Origin: Chitinophaga pinensis
GTDB lineage: Bacteria > Bacteroidota > Bacteroidia > B-17B0 > Aurantibacillaceae
Direction: 5' to 3'
Assembly: GCA_945860225.1 (NCBI GenBank)
Contig: CAMAPT010000013.1
Span: forward strand, 1 to 64,000
DNA: 64,000 bases
The translations under genes and the position numbers were made by a program. The notes beneath the pieces are model-generated. The model searched no databases. It was given only the letters and a program-made list of their open reading frames with translations, and was not told where the DNA came from. Shown in pieces: positions 29,969-45,994 of this stretch (the stretch's first letter is position 1; each line of letters opens with the position of its first letter).

Positions 29969-30706
29969 TTAATGATGATGATAAAAAAAATTATTAAACA
30001 AATAACATAAGCCTATTATAACTATTAAATACGAGCTGATTAAATCCATTTTATTAAAAATTGGAAATTTTTCCTGTTTTTGTGTTAGCTTTTTTCCAAT
30101 AATAGAAAAGAGAATTGCTAACAAAAACATCACCACCACAAAACCCAATACATAAATAAGCACATAACCAAATGAATTAGCAAAGCTTCCTGATTGGCCG
30201 GCCATAAAAAATGCGGCTATAGCTGATGGACAAGGTATGAGACCACTTAAAATTCCAATTAATGCAGTTGTTTTATGCGTGTGTGTAACTTTATTATCGT
30301 TTACAGTGCTTAATTTTAAACTATTTAAATTGATTGTTTTTTTTTCGGTAGCGCTTGAATGATGATGATGATGCGTGCAACTAGAGGAACAAACATGTTT
30401 ATTGTTTTTTATTTTATAAAGCATATATCCGCCAATAGACATCAAAATTAAAGGTGAGATAATACCTAAAATGTATTCCGCTTTTTCAGAATCAAAAAAA
30501 GGAAACAAATATGAAACCACAAATCCTATGGCTAACAACATAAAAGTATGAGAAAATGCCATACTAAATACTAATATAAACAGGTGATTTTTAGCATTTT
30601 TATTGCCTAAGGTATAAGATGCCATAGCCGTTTTACCGTGGCCTGGCTCAAGCGCATGCATGGCACCTAAAATAAAAACAGCACCTAAATTCAAAACATT
30701 AGTCAT
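29969..30706 (-). CDS. NicO/RcnA-type metal efflux membrane protein
   Basis: A 245-residue protein with six membrane helices. The N-terminal motif HALEPGHGKTAMASY is the hallmark of the NicO (nickel/cobalt transporter, COG2215/RcnA) family, and LIPCPSAIAAFFMAG marks the second half. The central cytosolic loop is rich in His and Cys (CSSSCTHHHHH, THTHKTT), and the C-terminus ends in HHH, typical metal-sensing or binding segments. It is divergent from the Fur-family regulator, with a candidate operator between them. The metal (Ni, Co or Zn) and the direction of transport are not proven by sequence. Confidence 0.88.
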   Translation of the reverse strand: MTNVLNLGAVFILGAMHALEPGHGKTAMASYTLGNKNAKNHLFILVFSMAFSHTFMLLAIGFVVSYLFPFFDSEKAEYILGIISPLILMSIGGYMLYKIKNNKHVCSSSCTHHHHHSSATEKKTINLNSLKLSTVNDNKVTHTHKTTALIGILSGLIPCPSAIAAFFMAGQSGSFANSFGYVLIYVLGFVVVMFLLAILFSIIGKKLTQKQEKFPIFNKMDLISSYLIVIIGLCYLFNNFFYHHH

Positions 30707-30734
30707 AACTTTAATTATTTAAAAATAAATAAAA

Positions 30735-30749
30735 AGCAACATTGTTGCA
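30735..30749. promoter_or_regulatory. Candidate Zur operator 1
   Basis: The palindrome AGCAAC-ATT-GTTGCA lies in the 67-base spacer between the divergent NicO and Fur-family genes, placed to control both. It matches the 15-base pattern shared with the sites at 31246, 33147 and 35146. Confidence 0.65.
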
Positions 30750-30773
30750 ATTTAATAATTATTTTGTAATTTT

Positions 30774-31199
30774 ATGAAAATGAAGAAAGCTACTCAAATA
30801 TTAAATGAATTAGGTTTTCGAAAGACTGAGATACGGATAAAAGTATTGGAGTATATTCAAAAAATTGGCAAAGCTGTTTCGCAACCTGAATTAGAAAAAA
30901 AATTTAATACTCTAGCTGATAGAGTTACATTATATAGAATACTAGCCGCTTTTGAAGAAAAAGGCCTTATTCATAAAATAATGGATGTGCATGGTGTAGC
31001 AAGGTATGCCATGTGTAACGAAAAACATTGTACTGAGCACGAACACCATGATGAGCACGTGCATTTTAATTGTACTGAATGTGGCGACGTTGTTTGTTTA
31101 GATTCAATTAAGGTACCTGATATTAAACTACCTAAATCATTTTCATTATCACGTTTAAATTTAAACATTGAAGGTACCTGCGACAATTGTCAAAAATAA
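30774..31199 (+). CDS. zur: Fur-family transcriptional regulator, probably Zur
   Basis: A 141-residue regulator: an N-terminal winged helix (RKTEIRIKVLEYIQ ... DRVTLYRILAAFEEKGLIHKI) and a C-terminal dimerisation/metal domain with EHEHHDEHVHFNCTECGDVVCLD and a final C-DNC pair, giving two CxxC pairs for a structural zinc. Fur-family type (Fur, Zur, PerR) is hard to call from sequence; linkage to COG0523 GTPases and metal permeases under shared palindromes favours Zur. It is probably autoregulated through the site at 30735. Starts at 30774 or 30780 are both possible. Confidence 0.85.
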   Translation: MKMKKATQILNELGFRKTEIRIKVLEYIQKIGKAVSQPELEKKFNTLADRVTLYRILAAFEEKGLIHKIMDVHGVARYAMCNEKHCTEHEHHDEHVHFNCTECGDVVCLDSIKVPDIKLPKSFSLSRLNLNIEGTCDNCQK

Positions 31200-31245: not shown

Positions 31246-31260
31246 TGCAATATAGTTGCG
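31246..31260 (+). promoter_or_regulatory. Candidate Zur operator 2
   Basis: TGCAAT-ATA-GTTGCG, the same 6-3-6 palindrome pattern, ends five bases before the ATG of the COG0523 GTPase. A regulator bound here would cover the transcription start. Confidence 0.6.
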
Positions 31261-31265: not shown

Positions 31266-32486
31266 ATGAATATGAAAAAATTACCAGTCACCGTATTAAG
31301 CGGTTTTTTAGGAGCAGGTAAAACTACTTTGCTAAATCATGTATTAAATAATAAACAGGGCTTAAAAGTGGCTGTTATTGTAAACGACATGAGTGAAATT
31401 AATGTGGATGCTAAATCTGTAGAGCGCGAAGGAAATCTATCACGGACCGAAGAAAAGCTCGTAGAAATGAGTAATGGCTGTATTTGTTGCACGCTCAGAG
31501 AAGATTTAATGGTTGAAGTTGAGAAACTAGCTAAACAAAATAAATTTGATTATTTACTCATTGAGAGTACAGGAATTTCTGAACCTGTGCCAGTTGCACA
31601 AACTTTTTCTTTTGTAGATGATGAAAAAGAAATTGATCTTTCTAAGTTCAGTTATATAGATTGCATGGTGACAGTTGTTGATGTATTTAATTTTCCTGCT
31701 GATTTTGGAACTAATGAAACGTTAATGGATAGGGAGTTGACGAATATGGAAAACGATTATCGTACTATTGTCAATCTTTTAACCGATCAAATAGAATTTG
31801 CTAATATCATTATCCTTAATAAAATTGATTTAGTTTCTGCTGATCAAGCTGCTATTATTGAGGCAATCATTAAAAAATTAAACCCATCCGCTAAAGTGAT
31901 AAAAAGTACTTTTGGTAAAGTTGACCCGTCCCTTATTTTAAATACAGGCTTATTTAATTTAGAAGAAGCAGAAGGCTCTGCTGGATGGATTAAGGAATTA
32001 AATGGAGAACATACACCCGAAACCGAAGCCTACGGAATTTCATCTTTTGTATTTAGAGATAAAAGACCTTTTCATCACGATCGTTTTTGGAATTATGTTA
32101 ATGAAAAATTTTCTTCAAACATTGTAAGAAGCAAAGGGCTGTTTTGGATAGCTTCTCGCCCTGATCAAGCATTAAGTTGGAGTCAAGCTGGCGGTTCATT
32201 AAGAGCTGATAGCGCAGGAGTTTGGTGGGCTAGTTTGCCATTTAGCGAACGAATAAAAAGAGCCTCATTTTTAGATAACCAAAAATTAATTGAAGAAAAA
32301 TGGGATAAAGAATTTGGAGATAGACTTAATGAATTAGTGATTATAGGCCAAGATATGAATGAAAAAGAAATCAGAGAAGACTTAGAGGCTTGTTTATGCA
32401 CACCCGAAGAAGTTAAATGGATGCATGAGAAGAAATATACAGAAGATGCTTGGCCTCTTGGCCCAATAACCTGCGAAGTAAATTAA
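31266..32486 (+). CDS. COG0523 (CobW/ZigA-type) metal-chaperone GTPase
   Basis: A 406-residue G3E GTPase with Walker [10 protein letters not shown] (13-21), the metal-binding C72-I-C74-C75 motif of the family ([12 protein letters not shown]), [16 protein letters not shown], the G4 motif NKIDL, and a C-terminal CobW_C domain with [20 protein letters not shown]. Size and C-terminus resemble ZigA/YciC-type zinc-limitation GTPases. These deliver metal to target enzymes in the cytosol when zinc is scarce. ATG 31266 is chosen because a start at 31245 would lie inside the candidate operator. Confidence 0.92.
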
Positions 32487-32490
32487 ATAA

Positions 32491-32537: not shown

Positions 32538-33029
32538 TTATTTGGTAGTCGTTTCTTTATGCTTTGCCATCATTTCTTCATGGTCTTTCTTCATTTGCTC
32601 ATGGTCAGCTAATATTTTTTCATGTTCCGCTTTCATCGCATTATGTTCTTCTACCATTTTTGAATGATCTGCTTCAACTGTTTTAGCATCAGCCTCACCA
32701 TTCATGTGTTTTTTCTCAAGTTCAGTATGAGAAGCTACTAAAGCTTTATGCTTTTCTAAAATAGCATCATGTTCTGCAATTAATTTATCATGATTAGCTT
32801 CCATAGCGATGCAGGCGCTATCTTGTCCGTTAGCAACCGTTCCATGCTCGTCTTTCATTGTGTTATGAGCAGTTTCTAATTCTGCATGGCTGATTTCCAT
32901 CAATGAATCTTCTACTTCCATGTTACGATGCTCAACGGCTAATTTGTTTTCTAATTCTTTATTAGCTCCACCACATGAAACTAACGCAAATGTGATTGCT
33001 ACAGCTGAAATTGATTTTAAGATGGTCAT
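32538..33029 (-). CDS. Lipoprotein with histidine-stamped heptad repeats
   Basis: A 163-residue protein with a lipoprotein signal (FALVSCGG, lipidated C19). The rest is one long predicted coiled coil in which a 7-residue unit of the form x-H-x-x-(hydrophobic)-x-x repeats, for example EHDAILE, KHKALVA, SHTELEK, then DHSKMVE, EHNAMKA, EHEKILA, DHEQMKK, DHEEMMA. One histidine per heptad is highly regular. It should be a periplasmic, lipid-anchored rod; metal binding is an inference supported by its place in the metal island. I do not recognise a named family. Confidence 0.82.
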   Translation of the reverse strand: MTILKSISAVAITFALVSCGGANKELENKLAVEHRNMEVEDSLMEISHAELETAHNTMKDEHGTVANGQDSACIAMEANHDKLIAEHDAILEKHKALVASHTELEKKHMNGEADAKTVEADHSKMVEEHNAMKAEHEKILADHEQMKKDHEEMMAKHKETTTK

Positions 33030-33146: not shown

Positions 33147-33161
33147 TGCAACACAGTTGCA
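33147..33161 (+). promoter_or_regulatory. Candidate Zur operator 3
   Basis: TGCAAC-ACA-GTTGCA is a perfect 6-3-6 palindrome 15 bases before the -7 box at 33177, covering the expected -33 region of the first lipoprotein-DUF6702-HupE cassette. Confidence 0.7.
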
Positions 33162-33206: not shown

Positions 33207-33524
33207 ATGGACAAAATTTATAAATATATTGCCTTCTTTTTTGTAATAATATGCAGCAACGCTTGCCAACCTTCAAGCTATGAAAAGGAAACTATAAATT
33301 ATTCGAAAAATGAAATTGAACTAATAATCGAAATACCCAAAGCGTCTTGCAATAATTGCAAAAAAACAATTGAGAAAGGATTAGTAAAAAAGGAAGGAAT
33401 AAAATTTTGCGAATACTCAATAAGTTCAAAAAAATTAACCTTGATATATGATTCTTCCTTGATTTCAGTAGATCATATAAAACATCTCATAACACTTCTA
33501 ACTTACCAAATACCATGCAGATAA
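33207..33524 (+). CDS. HMA-like metal-binding lipoprotein (cassette copy A)
   Basis: A 105-residue exported protein with a hydrophobic leader and a likely lipidated C20 (weak lipobox CSNAC). The mature part looks like a heavy-metal-associated (HMA) ferredoxin-like fold: IEIPKASC48NNC51KKTIEKGL, equivalent to the MxCxxC metal loop and helix 1, followed by ISSKKLTLIYD. The C-terminus is QIPCR, so a third cysteine (C104) may join the CxxC site. It is the first gene of a three-gene cassette repeated at 38969-40407. It probably carries a metal ion in the periplasm. Confidence 0.8.
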   Translation: MDKIYKYIAFFFVIICSNACQPSSYEKETINYSKNEIELIIEIPKASCNNCKKTIEKGLVKKEGIKFCEYSISSKKLTLIYDSSLISVDHIKHLITLLTYQIPCR

Positions 33525-33576: not shown

Positions 33577-34131
33577 ATGAATAAAATTAAACGATTCGAT
33601 TTTTCAAAAGCGAAGTATTCAGCAATCAAAATTATTGTGTTATTGAATATTATAATTGTATTATCGGCATTCCAAAAACACCCGATTAAACTCACTGCTA
33701 TGTTAATAGAATATGATCCAAAAACCAATGGGTTGTATTTGGAGTGTAAAGTTTTTATTGATGACTTTGAAAAAAGTATAAACAAAACTTTAACAAAAAA
33801 CATTAACACATCAAATCCCTCTGCATCAGACATAGAGGGGATAAATGACTATTTCAACAACTACGTTAAACTGTGTGTAAATAAAAAGAAATTAGAACTA
33901 AAATACAAAAGCTCTGAAGTAGTTAATACATATAACGTTTTCTTAATAAAATTTGAAAATATAAAAGTGAATTTAAAAAAAGGTGACAAATTTGAAATTT
34001 CAAACACATTATTTTTTGAAGAATACAACTACTTGCAATCTAATAGAATGACTGTTAGACTTCCTCCATTTATTACTGAAGATCATCTCGAATCGAGAAT
34101 TGATGATTATTACATCCCTTATAGTTTATAA
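33577..34131 (+). CDS. DUF6702-like envelope protein (cassette copy A)
   Basis: A 184-residue protein with an N-terminal membrane anchor or signal (IKIIVLLNIIIVLSAFQ) and a beta-rich domain of about 145 residues. KHPIKLTAMLIEYD, LECKVFIDDFEKSINKTL and SNTLFFEEYNYLQSNRMTVRLP match the layout of DUF6702, a Bacteroidota family without known function. Its paralogue is at 39293. It sits between an HMA-like lipoprotein and a HupE/UreJ permease, and in other phyla HupE-type permeases often carry a comparable external domain, so it may be the periplasmic part of the permease (inference). Confidence 0.75.
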   Translation: MNKIKRFDFSKAKYSAIKIIVLLNIIIVLSAFQKHPIKLTAMLIEYDPKTNGLYLECKVFIDDFEKSINKTLTKNINTSNPSASDIEGINDYFNNYVKLCVNKKKLELKYKSSEVVNTYNVFLIKFENIKVNLKKGDKFEISNTLFFEEYNYLQSNRMTVRLPPFITEDHLESRIDDYYIPYSL

Positions 34132-34147: not shown

Positions 34148-34738
34148 ATGAATTATTTACACACTTTTTTCATTAATGGTTGGAACCATATTGTAGATAT
34201 AAATGCCTACGACCATTTATTATTCGTAATGACATTATGTGCAGCCTTTAAATTATCGCAGTGGAAACACATCTTAGTCATTATTACAGCATTTACTATT
34301 GGACATAGCGGTACACTTATACTAAGTGCACTTGACATAATTCCTACAAATTCTAAAATTATAGACACGCTCATTCCAATAACAATTATGATTACTGCTA
34401 TGGCAAACATTGTTAATTATAACAAGGAAACCAATTTTTCTGATGCTAAAATAAAATATGGCATTGCACTAGTGTTTGGTCTAATCCATGGTTTAGCATT
34501 TGCTAGTAACTTTAAATTTATGATGTTTGGAGGTAGTATTATAATGCCATTATTTGCCTTTAATATTGGAATAGAAGTAGGACAATTATTTATAGTAGTA
34601 TTATTTATGGTTGCCTTGTGGTTATACACTAAAGCCATTAAGGGTGAACATTTGAAATGGAATTTATTTGTTTCAGGCGCAGGTTTTGGAATTGCGGCAA
34701 CTATACTATTGAAAGCTATCGGTAATTCATCTTATTAA
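34148..34738 (+). CDS. HupE/UreJ-family metal permease (cassette copy A)
   Basis: A 196-residue inner-membrane protein with six helices. The N-terminal GWNHIVDINAYDHLLFVM (H14, D22, H23) and later AFTIGHSGTLIL and GLIHGLAFA are the His/Asp-rich helix motifs of HupE/UreJ proteins, which import nickel (and in some cases cobalt) for hydrogenase and urease. Neither enzyme is encoded here, so the metal may differ. It is about 85% identical by eye to the copy at 39823. Confidence 0.88.
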   Translation: MNYLHTFFINGWNHIVDINAYDHLLFVMTLCAAFKLSQWKHILVIITAFTIGHSGTLILSALDIIPTNSKIIDTLIPITIMITAMANIVNYNKETNFSDAKIKYGIALVFGLIHGLAFASNFKFMMFGGSIIMPLFAFNIGIEVGQLFIVVLFMVALWLYTKAIKGEHLKWNLFVSGAGFGIAATILLKAIGNSSY

Positions 34739-34791: not shown

Positions 34792-35127
34792 ATGAATAGG
34801 TATAAAATGACATTTAAATATGCACTTTATTGGTCATGTATAATATACTGTTTGTTAACCTTTATATATTATATATTCGCAAAAGAATTTCCAAAATGGT
34901 TTAACTATTTTACGACGATATGCCCATTAGCAATAATCACAACCTTATTATCAAATAAATCGAATGAAATTTATAAATATTTACTGATTTATTTCTGGGG
35001 TCAGTGGAGTATTTGCGTGCATTTTATAGGGCTAAAATATATATTATTAATACTATTTTACTTCTCCACGATAGGCATCTTCTTGGTGAGCACATGCCAA
35101 TTATATAATTTAAATCGCAATAAATAA
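34792..35127 (+). CDS. Small membrane protein of unknown function
   Basis: A 111-residue protein with three or four hydrophobic helices, rich in aromatic residues, with scattered Cys (WSCIIYCLL, TICPLAI, WSICVHFIG, STCQLYNL). No family is recognised. It lies 53 bases after the HupE gene and before the NiCoT operator, so it is probably the last gene of cassette A's operon; the second cassette lacks it. Confidence 0.6.
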   Translation: MNRYKMTFKYALYWSCIIYCLLTFIYYIFAKEFPKWFNYFTTICPLAIITTLLSNKSNEIYKYLLIYFWGQWSICVHFIGLKYILLILFYFSTIGIFLVSTCQLYNLNRNK

Positions 35128-35145: not shown

Positions 35146-35176
35146 TATTTAAACGCAACAGTGTTGCGTTTAAATA
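35146..35176 (+). promoter_or_regulatory. Candidate Zur operator 4, extended perfect palindrome
   Basis: The arms TATTTAAACGCAAC (35146-35159) and GTTGCGTTTAAATA (35163-35176) are perfectly complementary around AGT, with the 6-3-6 core shared by the other three sites at the centre. It ends 31 bases before the NiCoT start. There is no T-tract after it, and it precedes rather than follows a gene, so an operator fits better than a terminator. Confidence 0.72.
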
Positions 35177-35207: not shown

Positions 35208-36020
35208 ATGGAGGGTTTAGGTTTTATATCATTTAGTATTTCAGAATATTTATTAATTCTTTCACTTGGACTAAAACATGGGCTTGATCCTGATCACATT
35301 GCCATTATTGATGGAATGACAATGAAACACAGTGAACTTAATACTCCTTACGCAAAGTGGGTTGGTACTTTTTTTGCAATTGGCCACGGAGCTGTAGTTA
35401 CACTCATAGCAATAAGTGTGAGCCTAATAAATCACACTCTATCGATACCCATATGGTTAAACAAGATAGCTGAATGGATTCCTATTTTTCTATTAATATT
35501 TATTGGATTAATAAATTTGAAAGATTTAATTAAAAAAAATAATTATGTCGTTAATGGTTGGCGGAATCATTTAATCCCAAAAAAAATAAAAAACAGTTCG
35601 AACCCCATAGCTATAATTTTAATAGGAATTTTATTCGCAACTGTGTTTGATACAGCAACGCAAGCAGCCGCTTGGGGTTACGCGGCATCTAGAGAAGGAG
35701 GTGCCCTTGCAGCAGCACTAACTGGTATAATATTTTCAATTGGAATGATTACAACCGACACAATTGATGGTCACATATTATTTAAAATTTTAACTAAATC
35801 ATCCAAAAAAACGATAATGTATAATTACCGAAAAAATATCGGATGGGCTATTGTTATTATGTCATTTACCATTGCCTTTTATAAAACAATTTGTGCTTTC
35901 AATCCATTGTATCAATTACCCCCGTTTATGAGTTTGATGATTGGATTACTTTTTGTAGGAATAATTGCACTATTTTATGGATTTGCATTGAGTGAAAATT
36001 CAATTAAAAATAAATATTAA
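35208..36020 (+). CDS. NiCoT-family nickel/cobalt permease
   Basis: A 270-residue membrane protein with the NiCoT signature H24-x4-D29-H30 in helix II (LKHGLDPDHIAIIDG), a second motif AIGHGAVVTLIA, and third/fourth motifs TVFDTATQAA and GMITTDTIDGHIL. NiCoT proteins (NixA, HoxN, NhlF) take up Ni and/or Co with high affinity. Control by a candidate Zur site suggests that zinc or a replacement metal could be the cargo (inference). The ferredoxin-like gene follows by seven bases. Confidence 0.9.
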   Translation: MEGLGFISFSISEYLLILSLGLKHGLDPDHIAIIDGMTMKHSELNTPYAKWVGTFFAIGHGAVVTLIAISVSLINHTLSIPIWLNKIAEWIPIFLLIFIGLINLKDLIKKNNYVVNGWRNHLIPKKIKNSSNPIAIILIGILFATVFDTATQAAAWGYAASREGGALAAALTGIIFSIGMITTDTIDGHILFKILTKSSKKTIMYNYRKNIGWAIVIMSFTIAFYKTICAFNPLYQLPPFMSLMIGLLFVGIIALFYGFALSENSIKNKY

Positions 36021-36027: not shown

Positions 36028-36348
36028 ATGAGAAATTTAGCAACAATAAAAAAACACCTAATACTATGTAATGGCGAACAGTGTACCATAAAAGGCGCAA
36101 ATAAAATAATTGAATCAATCAGACGAACTATAAAGCGCTGTGGACTTCATGACCATATACATACTACCCGTTCATTATGCAACGGTAGATGTGAAGATGG
36201 TTCAATAGTAATTATATACCCAGATGCAGTATGGTATAAAAATGTAGATGAAACAGCAGCCGATAAAATAGTAAAAAAACATTTAATGAACGGCCAAATA
36301 GTAAAGGAGAATTTACTATTTAAACAAGAAACTAAAAACCACGGTTAA
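36028..36348 (+). CDS. Thioredoxin-like [2Fe-2S] ferredoxin
   Basis: A 106-residue protein of the thioredoxin-fold ferredoxin family: HLILCNGEQCTIKGA near the N-terminus and SLCNGRCEDGSIVIIYPDAVWY further on supply four cysteines for a [2Fe-2S] cluster, followed by the family ending ADKIVKKHLMNGQIV. Relatives occur beside CobW or cobalamin genes and as NuoE-like domains. ATG 36028 (MRNLATIKKH) is chosen because 35992 would overlap the permease. It is probably cotranscribed with the permease; its redox partner is unknown. Confidence 0.85.
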   Translation: MRNLATIKKHLILCNGEQCTIKGANKIIESIRRTIKRCGLHDHIHTTRSLCNGRCEDGSIVIIYPDAVWYKNVDETAADKIVKKHLMNGQIVKENLLFKQETKNHG

Positions 36349-36450: not shown

Positions 36451-37905
36451 ATGGAAAATAAAAAAACAATCCCTGTAACCGTTTTAACCGGTTTCCTTGG
36501 CTCAGGAAAAACAACCTTATTAAATAAAATACTAAGTGAAAATCACGGTAAAAAAATAGCTGTAATCGAAAACGAATTTGGCGAAGTTGGTGTGGATAAC
36601 GAATTGGTTATTGGAGCCGATGAAGAAATTTTTGAAATGAATAATGGTTGCATTTGTTGCACGGTTCGTGGAGATTTAATTCGAATACTTGACCAATTAA
36701 TGAAACGAAAAGATAAACTCGATTATATTATAGTAGAAACTACAGGCATGGCAAATCCTGCACCTGTAGCGCAAACATTTTGGGTAGATGATGATATAAA
36801 AGAAACATACAGGCTTGATGCCATTGTTACAATTGTAGATGCCAAACACGTTTGGTTGCATATTGATGATAGTGAGGAATGTAAGGAGCAAATTGCTTTT
36901 GCCGATGTTATTCTTTTAAATAAAACAGATTTAGTAACTGCTGAGGAGTTAGTAATACTTGAGAAACGGATACGCTCAATGAATGTCAACGCTAAAATAC
37001 ATAAAACAAAAGATGCTGAAATTAATCTTGAAAACATACTTGACATTAAAGCCTTTGATTTAGATGCGAAAATTGAAATAAATCCTGCTTTTTCAACAGA
37101 AGAGTATCCATACGAATGGATGGGCTTATATAACTTAGTAGATAACGAGTATCAAATTGAAATGACTGAAGGCCCCGATCCTTCTTTTGACATAGGTTTT
37201 ATAAAATTAAATGATGCAAGTGTTACTGAAATAGCTATGGCTAAAAAGCAAGCTATTAAGTTATTTTCGGATCAACCAAAAGAGGTTAAGGCAGATAAGT
37301 TTTTAAATGCTAACCAAACCCTAAACAGATTGTTAATTGATAATGATTTACAAAACTTTTACTTTAGACCAAATAAACCAGGCATTTATGCTCTATTTAC
37401 GCAACATGGCCCTGATGAGTTTAATCTTAAAATTAAATCGGAGTATAAAGGAAATAATAAAGAACTATCAAATGCAAATACACATAAAGTTGTTTCAAAA
37501 GAAGATTTGCAAAACTTGAAATACGAAAGACTATCTCTAATTTCTCCCATATTATTTGAGGAGTTTGAACACAGCCATGAGCATGATGATTTGGTATCTT
37601 CTGTTGGTATTGAAGATGAAAACGAATTGAGTATTCAAAAAGTAAACGAATGGCTTTCTTATTTACTTCAGTTTAAAGGAACTGATATTTACCGTATGAA
37701 AGGGATTTTGAACATTGCTGGCAATGATGAACGATTTGTATTTCAAGGAGTACACATGTTGTTTGATGCCAAAGCCGACAGATTATGGAAAGCAGGGGAA
37801 AAAAGAAGAAATCAACTTATTTTTATAGGCAAAAATTTGAACCGAGAAGAATTATTGAGTGGATATAAAAGTTGTATCTCAAAAAAACAATTAAATACTG
37901 CTTAA
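36451..37905 (+). CDS. COG0523 GTPase with inserted domain and His-rich segment
   Basis: A 484-residue G3E GTPase: Walker A GFLGSGKTT (14-22), metal motif C67-I-C69-C70, VETTGMANPAPVAQTF, NKTDL, and a C-terminal CobW_C domain (about 395-475, IYRMKGILNIAGNDERFVFQGVH). Between them is an extra region of about 130 residues (about 225-360, including YALFTQHGPDEFNLKI) not present in the GTPase at 31266, and a His/Glu cluster EEFEHSHEHDD just before CobW_C. It is probably a metal chaperone. The stop abuts the ATG of the WD40 gene with no spacer. Confidence 0.92.
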   Translation: MENKKTIPVTVLTGFLGSGKTTLLNKILSENHGKKIAVIENEFGEVGVDNELVIGADEEIFEMNNGCICCTVRGDLIRILDQLMKRKDKLDYIIVETTGMANPAPVAQTFWVDDDIKETYRLDAIVTIVDAKHVWLHIDDSEECKEQIAFADVILLNKTDLVTAEELVILEKRIRSMNVNAKIHKTKDAEINLENILDIKAFDLDAKIEINPAFSTEEYPYEWMGLYNLVDNEYQIEMTEGPDPSFDIGFIKLNDASVTEIAMAKKQAIKLFSDQPKEVKADKFLNANQTLNRLLIDNDLQNFYFRPNKPGIYALFTQHGPDEFNLKIKSEYKGNNKELSNANTHKVVSKEDLQNLKYERLSLISPILFEEFEHSHEHDDLVSSVGIEDENELSIQKVNEWLSYLLQFKGTDIYRMKGILNIAGNDERFVFQGVHMLFDAKADRLWKAGEKRRNQLIFIGKNLNREELLSGYKSCISKKQLNTA

Positions 37906-38958
37906 ATGGTAAATCATTTACAAATAAATAAAATAGCAGAGTCAAAAAACGAATATGAATTATGGCGAACCCAACTTAATGATTATGTAATTGGTATTGG
38001 GTGGAGTTATACAAATGAGTATATTCTTGTGGCATCTTCGTGTGGTATATTAACGTGTTATAACTCATCATATCATTTAAAAATATTTGAAGCAAAAGCG
38101 CATCAAAATGGTTTAATGTGTTTAGCTGTATCACCTACCGAAAATAAAGCAGTAACAACAGGGCAAGATGGGCTTATCAAGCTTTGGGACATAAAATCAG
38201 CGTCTCTTATTAAAGAAATTAAATCAGATAGCCTATGGGTAGAGCAAGTGGTTTGGTCGCCTGATGGAAATTATTTTGCTGTAAGTTCTGGAAACACATT
38301 AACTGTTTTTAATAATGATGGAAAGAATATTCAAGAATTTGATGGGCATGAAAGTACTGTTTCGGGCATTGAGTGGAACAGTAGTAGCAAGGCATTTGCC
38401 ACAGCCTGCTATGGTGGTGTGCGTTTATTTGAAATTGAGCTAGATGAACCAATAGAGTTTTTGGAGTGGAAAAATTCTATGCACTCTTTATCGTGGAGTC
38501 CCGATGGTAAATTTATAGGTTGCGGTACTCAGGATTCGAGAGTGCATTTTTTTCCGTTACCTTATAATATTGGTTCTGATTTTGAAATGAATGGTTATAA
38601 AGGAAAAGTTAAACTATTAGATTGGACATTTGACTCTATCTTTTTCTTAACAAACTGTTGGGATGAATTAATCGTGTGGAAATTTGCAGGTGTTGCGCCG
38701 CAAGGTCAGATGCCACAAACGCTCGGTGGGCATTTAGGAAAAATAACACAAGCTAAATTTCAAAATAAAAGTAGCTTTCTAGCATCGGGCGACGACATGG
38801 GCTTTGTACATTTTTATGATGTTGCAATTAGCGAAAATTTAATAACAGGTGTTAAATTGAAAAACACAATAAGTAAACTATGTTGGTCAAACGATGATAA
38901 ACAATTAGCGATAGGCACATCGCACGGAGAGTTTGTTATTATGGAATCGCCAGCATAA
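37906..38958 (+). CDS. WD40-repeat beta-propeller protein
   Basis: A 350-residue cytosolic protein (no signal) made of WD40 repeats. Recognisable units include AVTTGQDGLIKLWDIKSA, SPDGNYFAVSSGN, STVSGIEWNSSSKAFATACY, SLSWSPDGKFIGCGTQDS and SFLASGDDMGFVHFYDV, enough for a seven-bladed propeller. WD40 proteins are scaffolds. Starting on the base after the GTPase stop, it is very likely translated together with it and may be its partner or target-selection platform (inference). Confidence 0.9.
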   Translation: MVNHLQINKIAESKNEYELWRTQLNDYVIGIGWSYTNEYILVASSCGILTCYNSSYHLKIFEAKAHQNGLMCLAVSPTENKAVTTGQDGLIKLWDIKSASLIKEIKSDSLWVEQVVWSPDGNYFAVSSGNTLTVFNNDGKNIQEFDGHESTVSGIEWNSSSKAFATACYGGVRLFEIELDEPIEFLEWKNSMHSLSWSPDGKFIGCGTQDSRVHFFPLPYNIGSDFEMNGYKGKVKLLDWTFDSIFFLTNCWDELIVWKFAGVAPQGQMPQTLGGHLGKITQAKFQNKSSFLASGDDMGFVHFYDVAISENLITGVKLKNTISKLCWSNDDKQLAIGTSHGEFVIMESPA

Positions 38959-38968: not shown

Positions 38969-39277
38969 ATGAAAAAAATAGTAATAATAGGCGCTATAAT
39001 TTTTGCAGTTAGCTCTTGTAATCAAATAGCAAAAGAAGAAAGAGTTTTAGTAAAAGGTAGTAATGATTCTTTGCTTGTAATAAATATCCCTGCGGCATCT
39101 TGTGAAAATTGTCAAAAAGTTATTGAAGATGGTTTGTATAAAGAAAAAGGTGTAAAACAAAGTATACTTAATTTGAATACAAAACAAGTATCTATAGTTT
39201 ATGCTCCAAGTATTACCAATCCCTTTATAATCGAAGCTACTGTAAATAAACTAGCGACCCAAATGCCTTGTAAATAA
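38969..39277 (+). CDS. HMA-like metal-binding lipoprotein (cassette copy B)
   Basis: A 102-residue paralogue of the protein at 33207. It has a clean lipoprotein signal (IIFAVSSCNQ, C17), the metal loop IPAASC45ENC48QKVIEDGL, NLNTKQVSIVYAP, and the C-terminal MPCK with C101. Outside the metal loop and the terminal cysteine it has diverged strongly from copy A. ATG 38969 is chosen because 38933 lies inside the WD40 gene. It begins 10 bases after that gene. Confidence 0.82.
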   Translation: MKKIVIIGAIIFAVSSCNQIAKEERVLVKGSNDSLLVINIPAASCENCQKVIEDGLYKEKGVKQSILNLNTKQVSIVYAPSITNPFIIEATVNKLATQMPCK

Positions 39278-39292: not shown

Positions 39293-39811
39293 ATGAAAAC
39301 TAAATTTTATAAAACTCTTTTACTGTTAGGTGTTGTAATATTTGCTACCTCTTTTAAGCATCCTATTAAACTTACTGCCTCGCTAATAGAGTACGATCTT
39401 AATTCTACAAGTTTAAAAACAGAATGTAAAATTTTTATAGATGACTTTGAAAAAAGCATTAATAAAACCTTGACTAAAAATATCAACCTATCTGATTTAA
39501 CAAAAGAAAATAAAACAGGTATTGAAAATTACTTTGAAAAACATTTTAACATTACTGTTAACGGAAAAATTTTACCCTTAAAATTTAAAGCATCTGAGGT
39601 TTTAAAAGAGTACAATGTTATTACTATAAAGTTTGTAGACAATAAGTTAAAGATTAAAAAAGGGGATAAATTACTTATTGAGAACACGCTTTTTTTTGAA
39701 GAGTTTGGATACTTGCAATCAAACAGAATAACTGTGCGCATACCTCCTTTTATTGCAGAAGATAATCATGAAGCCGTTGTAAATAATTATGCTATTCCTT
39801 ACAATTTTTAA
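39293..39811 (+). CDS. DUF6702-like exported protein (cassette copy B)
   Basis: A 172-residue paralogue of the protein at 33577, with a typical signal peptide (TLLLLGVVIFATSFKHP). The mature region has the same landmarks: HPIKLTASLIEYD, ECKIFIDDFEKSINKTLTKN, NTLFFEEFGYLQSNRITVRIPPF and the ending AIPYNF. It is spaced 15 bases from the lipoprotein and 11 from the HupE permease, a tight operon. Confidence 0.78.
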   Translation: MKTKFYKTLLLLGVVIFATSFKHPIKLTASLIEYDLNSTSLKTECKIFIDDFEKSINKTLTKNINLSDLTKENKTGIENYFEKHFNITVNGKILPLKFKASEVLKEYNVITIKFVDNKLKIKKGDKLLIENTLFFEEFGYLQSNRITVRIPPFIAEDNHEAVVNNYAIPYNF

Positions 39812-39822: not shown

Positions 39823-40407
39823 ATGAATAATTTAAGTTCTTTTTTTGTTAATGGTTGGAATCATATAGTTGATATTAATGCTTATGACCATTTATTGTTT
39901 GTAATGACACTATGTGCTGCGTTTAAGCTAAATCAATGGAAACAAATATTAGTAATTATTACAGCCTTTACCATTGGGCATAGCGGAACGCTTATTTTAA
40001 GTGCATTAGATATTATTCCTGCAAATTCTAAATTAATAGATATGCTAATTCCTATCACTATTATGATAACAGCTATAGCAAATATTATTAATTATGATAA
40101 GCAAAGTAAATTTTCTGATGCTAAAATAAAATACGGCATTGCCCTTGTTTTTGGGTTGATACATGGATTAGCGTTTGCCAGTAATTTTAAATTTATGATG
40201 TTTGGCGGGAGTATTATTATGCCATTATTTACATTTAACATTGGCATTGAAGTTGGGCAATTATTTATTGTACTAATTTTTACACTTGCTTTATGGCTTT
40301 ATACAAATATAATTAAAGGCGAACATTTTAAATGGAATTTATTTGTTTCGGGCGCAGGATTTGGCATTGCGGCAACTATACTTTTAAAAGCACTTAAAGC
40401 AGAGTAA
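39823..40407 (+). CDS. HupE/UreJ-family metal permease (cassette copy B)
   Basis: A 194-residue six-helix permease, nearly the same as the one at 34148: GWNHIVDINAYDHLLFVM, AFTIGHSGTLILSALDIIP and GLIHGLAFASNFKFMMFGG are shared. Differences cluster in the cytosolic loop around 90-95 and in the C-terminal helix. Probable metal import; the metal is not fixed by sequence. Confidence 0.88.
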   Translation: MNNLSSFFVNGWNHIVDINAYDHLLFVMTLCAAFKLNQWKQILVIITAFTIGHSGTLILSALDIIPANSKLIDMLIPITIMITAIANIINYDKQSKFSDAKIKYGIALVFGLIHGLAFASNFKFMMFGGSIIMPLFTFNIGIEVGQLFIVLIFTLALWLYTNIIKGEHFKWNLFVSGAGFGIAATILLKALKAE

Positions 40408-40449: not shown

Positions 40450-40788
40450 TTGACTAAAAAAACAACATACTTTTCTTTATTTTTAATAGCCACCCTGCTA
40501 TTTCAATTAGTTGTAATACCTCTCCACAAAGTATTTGCACATAAAAATGATGTAATTGAAAATTATACAAAAAACTCTTTAACCGTTAAAGTATCTCACG
40601 AACATTCAGATTGTTTTATTTGTGATCATGACCACTATTTACCCGCTTTAGTTAACGAAGTTTTTAGATTAAATAATACTTTACTTCAATATATTGATTT
40701 TAATTTTTTATGGTTTGATAATCTAATTAAATTATCTAGTCATTTTAATTATAAACTAAGAGGGCCACCTTTCTTATTTCTAAATTAA
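40450..40788 (+). CDS. Small exported His/Cys-rich protein
   Basis: A 112-residue protein with a TTG start, a signal peptide (LFLIATLLFQLVVIPLHKVFA) and a compact metal-binding-looking cluster HEHSDCFICDHDHY (about residues 54-67). The C-terminus LRGPPFLFLN resembles the end of small exported proteins that often precede metal-related TonB receptors in Bacteroidota. It lies about 100 bases before such a receptor. Metal binding is inferred from the cluster; the family is not named. Confidence 0.7.
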   Translation: MTKKTTYFSLFLIATLLFQLVVIPLHKVFAHKNDVIENYTKNSLTVKVSHEHSDCFICDHDHYLPALVNEVFRLNNTLLQYIDFNFLWFDNLIKLSSHFNYKLRGPPFLFLN

Positions 40789-40886
40789 CTCATAGAAATT
40801 AATTTTTTCTTTTTTCTAAAATTCACTTATTAAAAAAAACATTGCTGTATCATTCATTTGATATGGCTACTATAATATTATTTAAA

Positions 40887-43004
40887 ATGAAACAACATAA
40901 TACATTAAAAAAAATATCACTTCTTATTTTAATTGGTGGACTTTCTTCCAATAGCTTTAGTCAAACAAAAGATTCAATAAATTTAGATGAGGTTACAATT
41001 TCTACAAATAAAAAAGTTGAAGAAATGAAATCATTAAATAAAATTGATGTTGATTTAAAAGACTTACCCGTTACAATTCACAGTATTGATAAAAAATTAA
41101 TAGATCAAAGAGGAGGTATTGCTTTAGAAGATGCCATGAAAAATGTAACTGGAGTTAGATCTCGCAACACTTACGGTGGGTTTCAACACTTCCATATTAG
41201 AGGGATGGAGCAATTTGTACTCTTAGTAGATGGTGTAAGAGATGAACGCCATAATATTTCGCAAAGTGCTCCTTCAACTAACCTAGCCGCAGTAGAAGGT
41301 ATAGATGTTTTAAAAGGGCCATCTTCCGTTTTATTTGGACACTCGGCACTAGGAGGCATCATCAACATTAGAAGGAAACAACCTACAAGTATTTTTAAGG
41401 CAGATTTTATGGCATCATATAGCTCGTATAATACACGAAATATATCAGCCGGTGCTGGCGGTGCAATTAATAGCAAGCTTTCGTTTAGAACAGATTTTGG
41501 TGTAGGGCAATCTCAAGGATTTAGAAATTTTGGAAATTCCTATACAAATGGATATTTCGCTTTAAAATATGTTCCAAATAAAAAACATACAATCCAAATA
41601 TCCGTTCAAGCAAATGATGATTTTTACGCTACCGATACTGGATTGCCAGTAGAACAAGATGGTTCGCTTGTTAAAGGAATGAACCCATTAACACGCTACA
41701 ATGACCCTCAAGATTATTTAAAAAATAAGCGTGTTGATATGCAATTAAAATATCAATATCGCATTTCTGAAAACTGGGGCATAAGTAATACGGCTTCGTA
41801 TTTTGTTGATGATATAAATTATTTTTCTACTGAAGAGTTAACTCTTAATGCCACAAAAGATTCATTAACTCGCTCATTCCCTTTTTACTTTAATCATCAA
41901 ACAAAACCATTTCAAAATCAACTTGATTTAAATGGAACTTATAAAATCGGAAAAATTGAAAATAAATTTGTGTTAGGCTACTCTTTTAATATGTTAGATA
42001 GAAAAACATACAGAGGCATAATATCTGGCGCAGGTAAAAATGCTAAAATTTCTGTTGCAAATCCTGTATTAAATCAAGGAGCAATGAGTATTGAGGATAA
42101 TCGTTACCAAGCAAGAATGGAAACTTCGCATGGAATATTTGCTCAAAATTGGATTAATATTTCTGAAAAATTAAAAGCCTTGGTTGCAGTTAGAGTAGAT
42201 ATTTTTAATGGAGATTATTATACAAATACTGTAGATAAAGATAGAAATGTTACCGTAAAAGGTACAGTAAGTAAATTAAATATAACTAACCCTACTTACA
42301 GAGCAGGTTTAGTTTACGAGCCTATTAAAAATTTATCTATTTACTCATCGTACAATACCTATTTTAAACCTACCCGAACCGTAGCCGCAGATGGCACTAT
42401 GTTTGACCCTGAAACTGGCTATCAAGGTGAGCTAGGAGTAAGATATGCTTACAAAGAATTTATATCTATAAACGTATCTGCCTTTACACTAGCAAGAACC
42501 AATATATTACAAAGTTTTGCAGGTGGAGTATTTAAAAATATTGGAACAGGAACATCTAAAGGATTTGAAGTTGACTTACAAGCTAATATTACAAGCCAAT
42601 TTTGCATAACAGCAGGTTATTCAAACGCTAATACACGTGTTGAAAAAAATAAAGATGATAATTTTGAAAATCCGAACGTAGGAAAAAAACTAGCATTTGC
42701 ACCCGAACATTTAGTTCATTCATGGTTAACCTATGAACTAGATAAAAGTATTGTAAAAGGATTGGGTATAGGCGCTGGTGCAAGTTATACTTCCGAAAAT
42801 TACACGGATGCTAGCAATACGTATAAATTACAGGCATATCCGTTGATTGATGCTGCTATTTGGTATAAGTTTAGTACGTATGAATTACGTTTTAATGTAA
42901 ATAACATTACTGATCAGTTTTATTACAGAGATGCGATTTTTGCCAATCAATTTTTTGTTGGTATGAACAGAAACTTTATGTTAACGTTTAAAGCCGCATT
43001 TTAA
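40887..43004 (+). CDS. TonB-dependent outer-membrane receptor
   Basis: A 705-residue receptor: signal peptide (ISLLILIGGLSSNSFSQ), a plug domain (about 50-165, with VTGVRSRNTYGGFQHFHIRG and GIDVLKGPSSVLFGHSALGGIINI), and a 22-strand barrel ending in a terminal Phe (FMLTFKAAF). It lacks the N-terminal carboxypeptidase-regulatory domain of SusC types and resembles siderophore/metallophore receptors. Linkage to the metal genes suggests import of a metal or metal chelate. ATG 40887 is chosen for the signal peptide. Confidence 0.9.
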   Translation: MKQHNTLKKISLLILIGGLSSNSFSQTKDSINLDEVTISTNKKVEEMKSLNKIDVDLKDLPVTIHSIDKKLIDQRGGIALEDAMKNVTGVRSRNTYGGFQHFHIRGMEQFVLLVDGVRDERHNISQSAPSTNLAAVEGIDVLKGPSSVLFGHSALGGIINIRRKQPTSIFKADFMASYSSYNTRNISAGAGGAINSKLSFRTDFGVGQSQGFRNFGNSYTNGYFALKYVPNKKHTIQISVQANDDFYATDTGLPVEQDGSLVKGMNPLTRYNDPQDYLKNKRVDMQLKYQYRISENWGISNTASYFVDDINYFSTEELTLNATKDSLTRSFPFYFNHQTKPFQNQLDLNGTYKIGKIENKFVLGYSFNMLDRKTYRGIISGAGKNAKISVANPVLNQGAMSIEDNRYQARMETSHGIFAQNWINISEKLKALVAVRVDIFNGDYYTNTVDKDRNVTVKGTVSKLNITNPTYRAGLVYEPIKNLSIYSSYNTYFKPTRTVAADGTMFDPETGYQGELGVRYAYKEFISINVSAFTLARTNILQSFAGGVFKNIGTGTSKGFEVDLQANITSQFCITAGYSNANTRVEKNKDDNFENPNVGKKLAFAPEHLVHSWLTYELDKSIVKGLGIGAGASYTSENYTDASNTYKLQAYPLIDAAIWYKFSTYELRFNVNNITDQFYYRDAIFANQFFVGMNRNFMLTFKAAF

Positions 43005-43006
43005 TA

Positions 43007-44521
43007 GTGGAATTTGTTAAAATAAAAAAACAAAAATTAATTCAAGCGGTGCGTAATATGCACCGCTTGTTCGGATTTTTTCTATCTCTACTTTTTTTTG
43101 TATGGTGTACAACTGGATTTGTTATGATGTACAAGGAGTTTCCCTCGGTTTCAAAAACAGAGTATTTAAAAATGCGCACAAACATTAGTTATGATAGCAC
43201 AATAAAATTATCAGCTATAAACGAATGGGAATATACAAATTTAGATTCGTGCTCCGAAATTCGCATGTATCAGTTACTTAAAAAAAAAATTATCAATATT
43301 GTAAACACAGAAGGGAAAATTATTTGTTTAGATGCTTACACAGGAAAGTACGTTAATCCAATAAAAGAACATGAATTAAAAGACCTTGTAAATAGTTATT
43401 TTGGCAATACAAAAAAAGTAAAAACAATTGATGTAATAACAGAATTAGATCAATGGATACCACGTACCAAGTTTTTGCCACACATGCCTATTTATAAAGT
43501 TTTGTTAGATGATAAAGAAAATACAACGTGCTATATTTCTTCTCAATCAGGAGAAATAATTCAAAAACTAAATTTTGAAGATAAGATTTGGGCTTGGCTT
43601 GGACCTATACCACATTGGATATATTTTAAAAATTTACGAATAAATACTGATGCATGGAGGTATGTTGTAATAACACTTTCATCTTTAGGAGTGGTGTTAG
43701 CTTTGCTTGGTATTATACTTGGCGTTAGCCGAACAGTAAATTCAAAAAATAAATCTCAAAAATTCTCACCATATAAAAAAAAGTGGTTTCGTTGGCATCA
43801 CTATGTTGGATTTATATTTGGTCTATTTATTTTTACTTGGATATTAAGCGGCTTATTATCTATGAACCCATTAAAATGGGCGTCAGAAGATAGTTTAAGC
43901 GAAAAGGAAACTAAAATTTGGCAAGGAACAAATTATTCAATATTAACAACAGTAAATAATTTTCAATCAGCATTTGATAATATAACTAAGCACAAATCCA
44001 TTAAGGAGATTAAATTTTCATTGTTTAACTCGGACAATTATCTAATAGCAACTAATCAAAATAATGAAGTACAACATGTAAAAATACAAGATAAAAACGT
44101 TTTTAATAATGCAATAGATATTTTAAGTATAAAGTCTCAAGTATTAAAATTATTACCAAACAATAAAATTATTGCGTCTGAGATATTAACTGATTATGAT
44201 AACTATTATTACAATAAACACAGAACATTACCATTGCCAATTTACCGATTTAAGTTTGATGACAAAAATAGTACATGGTACTATGTAAACCCAAAAACCT
44301 TAACTGTTGTAAAAAAAATGCAAACAGATAATAAAATAGAAAGGTGGTTGTATAATGGGTTGCATAGTTTAGATTTCCCTCAATTATTTTATAAACGTCC
44401 CCTATGGGATATTATTGTTATAGTTTTATTATTAGGCTGTACACTACTTAGTTTTACTGGTTTAAAACTTACAGCTGGTTGGTTTTTTAGATGGTATAAT
44501 AAAAGATTGATAAGAAAGTGA
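43007..44521 (+). CDS. PepSY-TM inner-membrane protein, putative reductase partner of the receptor
   Basis: A 504-residue protein with a GTG start two bases after the receptor stop. It has the PepSY-associated membrane-helix layout: helix 1 (LFGFFLSLLFFVWCTTGFVMM), a large periplasmic PepSY region, a helix pair near 215-285 (RWHHYVGFIFGLFIFTWILSG), a second PepSY region, and a final helix. Conserved His/Arg at helix ends (NMHRLFG, RWHHY, LHSLDFPQ) may bind heme. Such proteins beside siderophore receptors are thought to reduce the metal-chelate complex in the periplasm. Confidence 0.85.
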   Translation: MEFVKIKKQKLIQAVRNMHRLFGFFLSLLFFVWCTTGFVMMYKEFPSVSKTEYLKMRTNISYDSTIKLSAINEWEYTNLDSCSEIRMYQLLKKKIINIVNTEGKIICLDAYTGKYVNPIKEHELKDLVNSYFGNTKKVKTIDVITELDQWIPRTKFLPHMPIYKVLLDDKENTTCYISSQSGEIIQKLNFEDKIWAWLGPIPHWIYFKNLRINTDAWRYVVITLSSLGVVLALLGIILGVSRTVNSKNKSQKFSPYKKKWFRWHHYVGFIFGLFIFTWILSGLLSMNPLKWASEDSLSEKETKIWQGTNYSILTTVNNFQSAFDNITKHKSIKEIKFSLFNSDNYLIATNQNNEVQHVKIQDKNVFNNAIDILSIKSQVLKLLPNNKIIASEILTDYDNYYYNKHRTLPLPIYRFKFDDKNSTWYYVNPKTLTVVKKMQTDNKIERWLYNGLHSLDFPQLFYKRPLWDIIVIVLLLGCTLLSFTGLKLTAGWFFRWYNKRLIRK

Positions 44522-44583
44522 TTATAGTTCGTAGTAAGATTAATTACTAAACATATATTAAATGATTTATTAAAACAGATTAT

Positions 44584-45018
44584 ATGAAATATACTATTAA
44601 AATAATAATAATATTCAATTTACTTGACATACTTGGATTTGTAGTATCTGCTGTATGCGCTATTTATTGTATGATACTTCCGTTTATTTTGAGTTCGTTG
44701 CCATTATTAGGACTAAAATTCTTGGGTAGTCCAACTTTAGAACTTACAATACTTTTTTTTAGTATCACACTCGCTTTCATATCTTTTTTAATTGGCTATT
44801 GTAAACATCATAAGGATGACGAAGCGCTTAGCATCATGTTAATTGCCTTTATTTTCATTTTAATAAGTCATACCAATACTATACATGGAAATATATCAAC
44901 CCTATTTGAACAAATTTTTATGCCTATTGGAGGAATTATAATGGCTTATGCTCATTATCGAAATTGGCAACTTTGTAAAGAAAATAATTGTAAAAAAAAA
45001 TTGAATAATTTGAATTGA
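44584..45018 (+). CDS. MerC-like membrane protein
   Basis: A 144-residue four-helix protein. LLDILGFVVSAVCAIYCMILPFILSSLPLLG matches the MerC pattern (Asp, Ser, paired Cys in helix 1, then a PLLG turn). MerC transports mercuric ion in mer operons, but MerC-like proteins also appear in zinc-responsive operons of Bacteroidota. It sits between the PepSY protein and a COG0523 GTPase, and no mercuric reductase is present, so a zinc role is more likely than mercury resistance. Confidence 0.75.
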   Translation: MKYTIKIIIIFNLLDILGFVVSAVCAIYCMILPFILSSLPLLGLKFLGSPTLELTILFFSITLAFISFLIGYCKHHKDDEALSIMLIAFIFILISHTNTIHGNISTLFEQIFMPIGGIIMAYAHYRNWQLCKENNCKKKLNNLN

Positions 45019-45049
45019 TTCTCAAAAAATAGTCATTATAAATACTAAT

Positions 45050-45994
45050 ATGATAAATATATATATAATTACAGGCTTTTTAGGGGCCGGCAAAACAACT
45101 TTTTTAAATCACTTTTTAAAACATCATGCGGCTTCTAAAAATTTAGTTATAGAAAATGAATTTGGCAAAGCTAATATTGATACTAGACTCATAACAGAAA
45201 AAATCGATGAAATTGTAGAATTAACTAATGGATGTATTTGTTGCTCTCTTGATAATGAGCTAATTGACGTTTTAGCTAAAGTTATCAAAAAAGACAATAA
45301 ACCAAATCATATTTTTATTGAAACAACTGGAATTGCAGATACGGGAAATATAATTAGCTTATTAAAATCAGAAGATTTAAAGCCATATTTTGACTATAAA
45401 GGAAGTATTTGTTTAATAGATGCTGAAAATATAATTGAACGTTTAAAGGAAACATTTGAAACAGGTCGACAAATAGCCGTGTCAGATGTTATTATTATAA
45501 ACAAACTAAACAGTATTACTATCACCAACCTCGAAAAAATTAAAGAACAGATAAAAGATATAAATCCTTTTGCTAATCAATTTGATTCGTTTGATGGTTC
45601 AATAAAATTTACCTTAATGGAAAATTATTTAAATGATAATGAATTTAAAATTCCTTCACATTTAAAAACCACACGACAACAAAATGCTCATAAAATAAAT
45701 TCGGTTTATTTTGAAACACACAATTCATTTGATTTTGGTGAATTAACCTACGCCTTACATGTAAACTTTCTGCTCTATCCCCATCAACTATTTCGATTAA
45801 AAGGATTCGTCAATACCAATATAAATAAGCAAAGGTATCTAATTCAATCAACAGGGAAACATATAAGCATAACACCAGTAGAAAACAAAGAAAGAAACAT
45901 GAAATCTGAATTAATTTTTATTGGACTTCAATTGAAAACCGAAACCATTCAGCGAATATTAAGACCGGCAATAGTTGAAAAAGAAAATACTTAA
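45050..45994 (+). CDS. COG0523 GTPase, short form
   Basis: A 314-residue G3E GTPase with Walker [10 protein letters not shown] (9-17), C62-I-C64-C65, IETTGIADTGNI, a G4 region INKLN (NKxD with Asn in place of Asp), and a short CobW_C domain (about 220-305) including LLYPHQLFRLKGFV. It is close in size to YjiA/YeiR-type proteins. It is the third COG0523 GTPase of the island and its last gene, 31 bases after the MerC-like gene. Confidence 0.9.
   Translation: MINIYIITGFLGAGKTTFLNHFLKHHAASKNLVIENEFGKANIDTRLITEKIDEIVELTNGCICCSLDNELIDVLAKVIKKDNKPNHIFIETTGIADTGNIISLLKSEDLKPYFDYKGSICLIDAENIIERLKETFETGRQIAVSDVIIINKLNSITITNLEKIKEQIKDINPFANQFDSFDGSIKFTLMENYLNDNEFKIPSHLKTTRQQNAHKINSVYFETHNSFDFGELTYALHVNFLLYPHQLFRLKGFVNTNINKQRYLIQSTGKHISITPVENKERNMKSELIFIGLQLKTETIQRILRPAIVEKENT

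Follow-up and report, generated by a model that had tools for sequence, protein, structure and literature searches.

A metal-handling island that may form a zinc-starvation regulon with nickel/cobalt-type permeases in a member of the Bacteroidota

Introduction

How does a member of the Bacteroidota acquire scarce zinc without ZnuABC? This question, which looks open, is raised by a metal-handling island of 20 genes around one Fur-family regulator at positions 29969-45994 of a 64,000-nucleotide stretch of DNA (hereafter the window; positions 1 to 64,000 of contig CAMAPT010000013.1, assembly GCA_945860225.1), from a genome labeled Chitinophaga pinensis and placed by GTDB in the Aurantibacillaceae. 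A first-pass annotation of the window had guessed from gene content that the island is a Zur regulon, and this guess is now supported by a regulator-linked palindrome that recurs at the promoters of the island and at zigA and merC promoters in relatives. We propose that the island is probably a complete zinc-starvation regulon, taking up zinc via permeases hitherto known for nickel and cobalt. That the island genes belong to one regulon is well supported by the placement and conservation of the palindrome, and we hold it to be very likely on these sequence grounds; that the metal imported is zinc is a reasoned guess, with cobalt as the serious rival. Among the matches listed in our searches of the open-access literature, which is an incomplete sample, neither a Zur regulon or Zur box of Bacteroidota nor a case of HupE with Zur was described; one listed paper, PMC12183173, mentions both HupE and Zur. 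The available excerpts of PMC11960050 and PMC9976891 contain no Zur study of Bacteroidota.

Operator and regulator

The palindrome TGCAAY-N3-RTTGCA (hereafter the box) stands before nicO/zur, zigA, HisLp/hmaL1, and nicT (Table 1). It was first spotted by eye, as GCAAY-N3-RTTGC, in the intergenic stretches of the island, where the four strict copies found in 16.2 kb compare with a mean of 0.09 and a maximum of 2 in 400 runs of a first-order model having the island's length and neighbor frequencies. The whole 2.9-Mb assembly holds 15 strict core matches (reversed control, 4), and the 11 outside the island lie within mechanically called open reading frames (ORFs) of at least 80 aa (10 matches) or between the ends of two convergent ORFs (1 match). 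Allowing one mismatch in the 15-mer gave 28 sites (reversed control, 11), comprising three in the island, five repeats of strict ones, and 20 that all lie within ORFs. The island's four are thereby the only promoter-placed copies of the box found in the assembly, and since they accompany a predicted zinc-sensing repressor, the island is likely the whole zinc-starvation response. Box placement, not box number, is the discriminating feature. Counting boxes per genome failed as a test, the 13-mer GCAACNNNGTTGC barely separating the eight zur-bearing genomes from the 79 other genomes of the family, and a one-mismatch search of the window did not outperform shuffled sequence (7 matches, including 4 exact ones, vs 8.58 expected).

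Conservation was assessed by searching named genomes for the regulator and taking 80 loci, the best of 153 confirmed, which are mostly from Pedobacter but include Mucilaginibacter, Hymenobacter, Pontibacter, Saprospiraceae, and other metagenome-assembled genomes. When all palindromes with 5-base half-sites and spacers of 0-8 that occurred at least once were ranked against an expectation from word frequencies, TGCAA-N5-TTGCA came first of 5512, with 77 copies vs 3.86 expected, in 59 of the 80 loci. Strict boxes number 128, and 118 of them, in 61 loci, lie outside ORFs or at most 60 nt inside any ORF of at least 100 aa. A box precedes zigA by at most 300 nt in 30 of 34 loci and merC, at the same distance limit, in 48 of 50; the reversed pattern does so in none (matches covering less than 40% of the query were dropped, and the zigA genes, which cobW2 and cobW3 match as well, were counted once). 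The motif TAnnTTTG, which we take to be the Bacteroidota -7 element, clusters at 10-14, 25-29, and 45-49 nt from box centers (49, 43, and 33 occurrences in 236 directions); this clustering, coming mostly from Pedobacter with tandem boxes 38 bp apart, is counted as support only.

The merC linkage bears on a different account of the island, as a metal-resistance locus in which NicO, MerC, and the His-rich proteins would remove or bind excess metal. NicO is weakly RcnA-like (Table 1) and the MerC family name fits, but MerC stands behind the same box in nearly all of the relatives just counted, and the Pfam matches of the 20 proteins include no P-type ATPase, CDF, RND, or MerR domain; we regard resistance as extremely improbable.

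The regulator scores above the FUR domain cut-off of 23.1 bits, and the genome has one other Fur-family match. Both CxxC pairs (C100, C103, C136, C139) together with H95 and H97 are present in 81 of 81 regulator sequences, while C81, C86, and H91 are each absent from one of them. We take the Cys and HxH pattern to be the regulatory site typical of Zur and the CxxC pairs to be structural.

Within the island, the spacing of boxes and genes suggests which transcripts would be controlled. The sequence TAATTTTG starts 23 nt past the center of box 3, such that box 3 would cover the upstream promoter element. Intergenic gaps from nicT to cobW3 do not exceed 102 bp, and from 35208 to 45994 the + strand carries a single terminator-like site, a weak one within the PepSY gene; thus box 4 may drive twelve genes. 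A generic promoter scan gave no excess of sigma-70-like sites (93 vs 99.2 in shuffles), and three of the four boxes appear in it as hairpins, a by-product of their palindromy.

Import route

The novel element is the proposed route of import: two pairs of DUF6702 and HupE, encoded as separate genes 11 and 16 bp apart. No match to ZnuA (PF01297) was found in the genome by a search that recovered the control in 11 of 14 known genomes; zinc uptake would consequently go via nickel/cobalt-type permeases, and candidates for the inner-membrane step among the genes under boxes are NicT, HupE1, HupE2, NicO, and MerC. The gene of a ZIP zinc permease has no box at up to two mismatches in the 2 kb examined.

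An H-P/Q-x-K motif is present in 76 of 76 aligned DUF6702 proteins, for which an exposed N-terminal histidine is predicted once the signal peptide is removed, the cleavage point having been placed by eye. In a second structural alignment, made alongside a Foldseek search, the DUF6702 fold aligns with the Ang-1 domain, which is fused to HupE, and with ZrgA and PA4063. The island proteins share this Ang-1-like fold with Anglerases and are not fused to HupE/UreJ-2 in one chain, nor is DUF6702, as ZrgA is, a zinc-binding periplasmic partner of an ABC transporter. The pair may thus work like an Anglerase without being a member of that class.

Of 395 genomes of the class, 143 carry relatives of HupE2, and from these a non-random set of 63 copies, mostly from the top of the list, was examined: eight with at least 60% identity (the genome's own two, L027, L028, and L154-L157) and 55 with lower identity. 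DUF6702 lies directly upstream on the same strand in all eight close copies, which come from three families of the class (f1, f12, f54). None of the 55 others has a co-directional DUF6702 within 2.5 kb that was detectable with the island protein (tblastn, E 0.01, which a diverged one could escape), and 19 of them have one on the opposite strand within that distance. A box lies within 2 kb upstream of four of the eight close copies and of one of the 55 others (p 0.0006, uncorrected for relatedness; the full 2 kb was present for 53 of the 55). Three of the four close copies that have no near box are deep in a box-led nicT operon and one is at a contig edge. The third HupE of the genome itself (contig C2) belongs with the copies that lack a box. 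The close copy in G350 stands behind a box, downstream of zigA and of ABC- and FtsX-like genes (the latter two recognized by eye).

The HisLp lipoprotein could supply these pairs. Leu, Ile, or Met mostly stands three residues beyond each of its histidines (heptad places assigned by eye), suggesting a coiled coil with His at a and hydrophobic residues at d, and a single-sequence model consists of three long helices (predicted local distance difference test score, pLDDT, 81.3; predicted template modeling score, pTM, 0.69). Two boxes precede the start of a copy in L028 (the G070 contig), by ~80 and ~230 nt. A protein database search, non-exhaustive in that it missed the G070 copy, returned one fragment only; a PDB search gave weak coiled-coil matches only, and none of the papers listed in a literature search for His-heptad zinc lipoproteins was on point.

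Taken in sequence, the regulon would work as follows. A zinc-loaded Fur-family repressor, the predicted Zur, would occupy the four promoter palindromes and be released upon zinc depletion, both the zinc signal and the repression being what we infer from the regulator and its boxes. The genes nicO and zur would answer to box 1, zigA to box 2, HisLp and hmaL1-DUF6702-hupE1 to box 3, and the genes from nicT to cobW3 to box 4. Passage of metal or a metal chelate across the outer membrane would fall to the TonB receptor and its PepSY partner. In the periplasm the metal would be held by the HMA lipoproteins, the His-ladder lipoprotein, and DUF6702, of which DUF6702, bearing a predicted N-terminal histidine, would pass zinc to HupE, the pair being a two-gene counterpart of the fused Ang-HupE proteins. 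A second importer would be NicT; client proteins inside the cell would receive metal from the three COG0523 GTPases, and the whole set would substitute for ZnuABC. Zinc import by DUF6702-HupE is itself inferred. We offer only tentatively, as falling somewhat short of an even chance, the stronger proposal that DUF6702-HupE represents a new importer class, one that moves zinc without ATP under the control of Zur and replaces ZnuABC in some Bacteroidota, and whose N-terminal-His periplasmic protein hands zinc to a co-transcribed HupE and is fed by a His-ladder coiled-coil lipoprotein acting as a zinc store.

Zinc, cobalt, or nickel

The first-pass annotation had favored zinc over nickel, remarking that urease, hydrogenase, and cobalamin genes are absent. 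Its preference is supported by the zigA linkage, the lack of nickel-enzyme and ZnuA matches, and the DUF6702 fold. The remark stands in part: searches of the entire assembly left urease alpha, NiFe hydrogenase, and CbiC unmatched (other nickel/cobalt enzymes were not searched for), but five B12-binding domains score above cut-off (contigs C3, C25, C12, and C15). The cell therefore likely uses B12, and as CbiC is unmatched the cofactor is likely salvaged rather than made. These B12-binding enzymes, with NicT, two HupE, and NicO, are what would be expected if the regulator sensed nickel or cobalt in the manner of Nur and the island were an ordinary nickel/cobalt uptake regulon. However, the box is tied to zigA-like GTPase genes in relatives, the nickel enzymes and the corrin-synthesis gene searched for are unmatched, and the regulator keeps the Cys and HxH set typical of Zur, so that this alternative appears very unlikely.

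Several observations weigh against the zinc-starvation reading. The predominance of Pedobacter among the 80 zur loci makes the counts non-independent; the exact 15-mer is missing in 21 of the 80, and no strict box is present in five of six Hymenobacter or in any of three Pontibacter loci. A box within 300 nt of zur itself is present at only seven of the 80 loci, the reason being that the Pedobacter zur is the last gene of an operon headed by a box (merC-ABC-FtsX-DUF3299-like-zur in L034). Within the family of the genome the regulator gene has a patchy distribution (8 of 87 genomes, E 1e-10), and across those 87 genomes the mean number of boxes is 3.1 in zur-bearing vs 2.3 in other genomes, with the reversed control at 1.75 vs 1.06. 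At 27.9 of 167 bits the regulator falls below the NCBIfam Zur equivalog NF008646, making Zur a functional prediction, and the first GTPase, close to the zinc chaperone ZigA in score, falls below the cut-off of NF038288 (Table 1), for which reason it is called ZigA-like. Foldseek alone returned, at E <0.001, only PA4063 and one unrelated viral protein; Ang-1 and ZrgA were not among its 50 best rows and came from the second alignment. For one DUF6702 protein that has been studied, binding is at 5.6 pM for Ni and at nM levels for Co and Cu (PMC12537917), and known HupE and NiCoT proteins transport Ni or Co (PMC2667541).

The last of these points also favors the main and serious rival, which keeps Zur as the regulator and zinc starvation as the trigger but has cobalt, imported by NicT together with its ferredoxin partner and perhaps by DUF6702-HupE, take the place of zinc. 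The unmatched urease, NiFe hydrogenase, and CbiC leave imported nickel or cobalt without an obvious dedicated sink; Zur-controlled cobalt uptake relieves zinc shortage in Pseudomonas aeruginosa (PMC11481552, PMC13083405), and zinc supply controls cobalt content in Cupriavidus metallidurans (PMC11340326). Conversely, the B12-binding enzymes are a possible, salvage-type use of cobalt, and without ZnuA and with a boxless ZIP gene the regulon would hold no zinc importer; DUF6702 also resembles zinc-bound ZrgA and PA4063, although PA4063 is said to bind zinc or cobalt (PMC11481552). We judge cobalt-for-zinc import unlikely, and retain zinc as the probable cargo of the regulon. If DUF6702-HupE does carry zinc, a permease family annotated as nickel transporters would have to be divided according to operator and partner gene, and 'nickel permease' would be the wrong annotation for some proteins of Bacteroidota.

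Comparison with known systems

The Zur regulons of P. aeruginosa and the zinc systems of Vibrio (znuABC, zrg/PA4063-PA4066, PA2911-PA2914) have in common with the island a Fur-family repressor, COG0523 GTPases, a TonB receptor, and a periplasmic protein of DUF6702-like fold (PMC9820375, PMC11481552); unlike them, the island genome has no ZnuA match, the island holds no ABC genes, and HupE/NiCoT would serve at the inner membrane. With the Anglerases (Ang-1/Ang-2 fused to HupE/UreJ-2) and the DUF6702 'metal sequesterase', the pairs share a predicted N-terminal His, a beta-sandwich fold, and a HupE/UreJ_2 partner (PMC12537917), but the island DUF6702 and HupE are separate adjoining genes under predicted Zur control, and the island DUF6702 has conserved Cys45 and Asp50-Asp51 in place of the His28/His32 modeled in the studied one, for which binding of Ni, Co, and Cu is reported (PMC12537917). 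COG0523 genes beside WD40 genes under Zur sites have already been described (PMC2770081), and the WD40 gene directly after cobW2 with a predicted Zur site recalls COG0523 subfamily 5; the neighbors here, however, are HupE/NiCoT and not znuABC, and cobW2 is likened to that subfamily by its neighborhood.

In L034 (Pedobacter kyungheensis, 4928-10411), two boxes spaced 38 bp apart lie between the divergent genes zigA and merC, merC leading the operon merC-ABC-FtsX-DUF3299-like-DUF1980_C-like-zur, and the zigA-box-box-merC arrangement is repeated in many of the Pedobacter loci fetched. The island has zigA, merC, zur, and the box in common with this operon and differs in having no ABC/FtsX genes and in having HupE, NicT, and TonB-PepSY. 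No paper on an operon of this type was found in the same incomplete literature search, and the box and gene set are directly testable in cultivable Pedobacter. In L156 (G350; 10143-16929), from another family, a box and hmaL-DUF6702-hupE come after zigA, genes recognized by eye as ABC-, FtsX-, and DUF3299-like, and a phosphoesterase gene, such that two kinds of predicted Zur-linked operon appear to adjoin.

Gene content of the island

The gene types named by the first-pass annotation (NicO, a Fur-family regulator, three COG0523 GTPases, two HupE, NiCoT, MerC, a TonB receptor with PepSY_TM, two HMA lipoproteins, and His-rich exported proteins) are all present, but its count of 17 genes is revised to 20, and it did not name the 2Fe-2S ferredoxin-like, WD40, and two DUF6702 genes (Table 1). 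Pfam matches comprise NicO/DsbD_2, FUR, CobW (three), HMA (two), DUF6702 (two), HupE_UreJ_2 (two), NicO (in the NiCoT protein), WD40, TonB receptor, PepSY_TM, and MerC, with a 2Fe-2S thioredoxin-like domain slightly below cut-off. NicT exceeds the PF03824 cut-off of 27.7 bits but falls below that of the TIGR00802 NiCoT subfamily (54.9 of 333.05 bits). All genes are on the + strand except nicO and HisLp, and the flanks look ordinary (tRNA-Arg at 28034; by eye, fumarase before and a response regulator after).

Table 1. Genes and boxes of the island, with positions in the window
Feature	Position	Strand	Evidence
nicO, NicO/DsbD_2-type membrane protein, His-rich loop	29969..30706	-	PRK10019 77.1 bits, below cut-off of 195
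Box 1 GCAACATTGTTGC, between divergent nicO and zur	30736..30748	.	palindrome
zur, Fur-family regulator, predicted zinc sensor	30774..31199	+	PF01475 37.2 bits; Cys/His conserved in 81 sequences
Box 2 GCAATATAGTTGC, zigA leader	31247..31259	.	palindrome
zigA-like COG0523 GTPase	31272..32486	+	NF038288 547.7 bits, cut-off 600; start picked by eye
HisLp, predicted lipoprotein, 15 His	32538..33029	-	13/14 spacings multiples of 7; lipobox by eye
Box 3 GCAACACAGTTGC, between divergent HisLp and hmaL1	33148..33160	.	palindrome
hmaL1, HMA-domain lipoprotein	33207..33524	+	PF00403
DUF6702 copy 1	33577..34131	+	PF20420
hupE1, HupE/UreJ_2 permease	34148..34738	+	PF13795 150.3 bits; 87% to hupE2
Small protein without Pfam family	34792..35127	+	
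Box 4 GCAACAGTGTTGC, 5' of nicT	35155..35167	.	palindrome
nicT, NiCoT-family permease	35208..36020	+	PF03824 55.5 bits
2Fe-2S ferredoxin-like protein (fdx)	36028..36348	+	NF041612 52.7 bits, below cut-off of 150
cobW2, COG0523 GTPase	36451..37905	+	PF02492/PF07683
WD40 beta-propeller protein	37906..38958	+	PF00400
hmaL2, HMA-domain lipoprotein	38969..39277	+	PF00403; start picked by eye
DUF6702 copy 2, predicted N-terminal-His periplasmic metal-binding protein	39293..39811	+	Pfam; motif alignment; fold comparison
hupE2, HupE/UreJ_2 permease	39823..40407	+	PF13795 150 bits
Small His-rich protein, exported (by eye)	40450..40788	+	no family match
TonB-dependent receptor	40842..43004	+	PF00593/PF07715; TIGR01783 220.2 bits, cut-off 223.5; likelier start ATG 40887
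PepSY_TM membrane protein	43007..44521	+	PF03929
MerC-like protein	44584..45018	+	PF03203 70.3 bits; box-linked in relatives
cobW3, COG0523 GTPase	45050..45994	+	PF02492/PF07683

The neighborhood is shared by three relatives, a check that the first-pass annotation had asked for, with 12 of the 20 island genes in L027, 13 in L028, and 8 in the stretch fetched of L174 (G011). The related island of L174 also encodes a small His-rich exported protein and a 94-aa protein of no clear family (10503-10838, 14138-14422). In L028, from the same genus, comparison with 31272-36348 gave identities of 57% for nicT and 40% for fdx, most other shared genes being 90-100% identical (nicO 83%, his112 75%), and L028 has neither zigA nor the first hmaL-DUF6702-hupE-orf111 set. 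The divergence of nicT and fdx, together with the missing genes, points to local gene replacement or to the acquisition of a second module.

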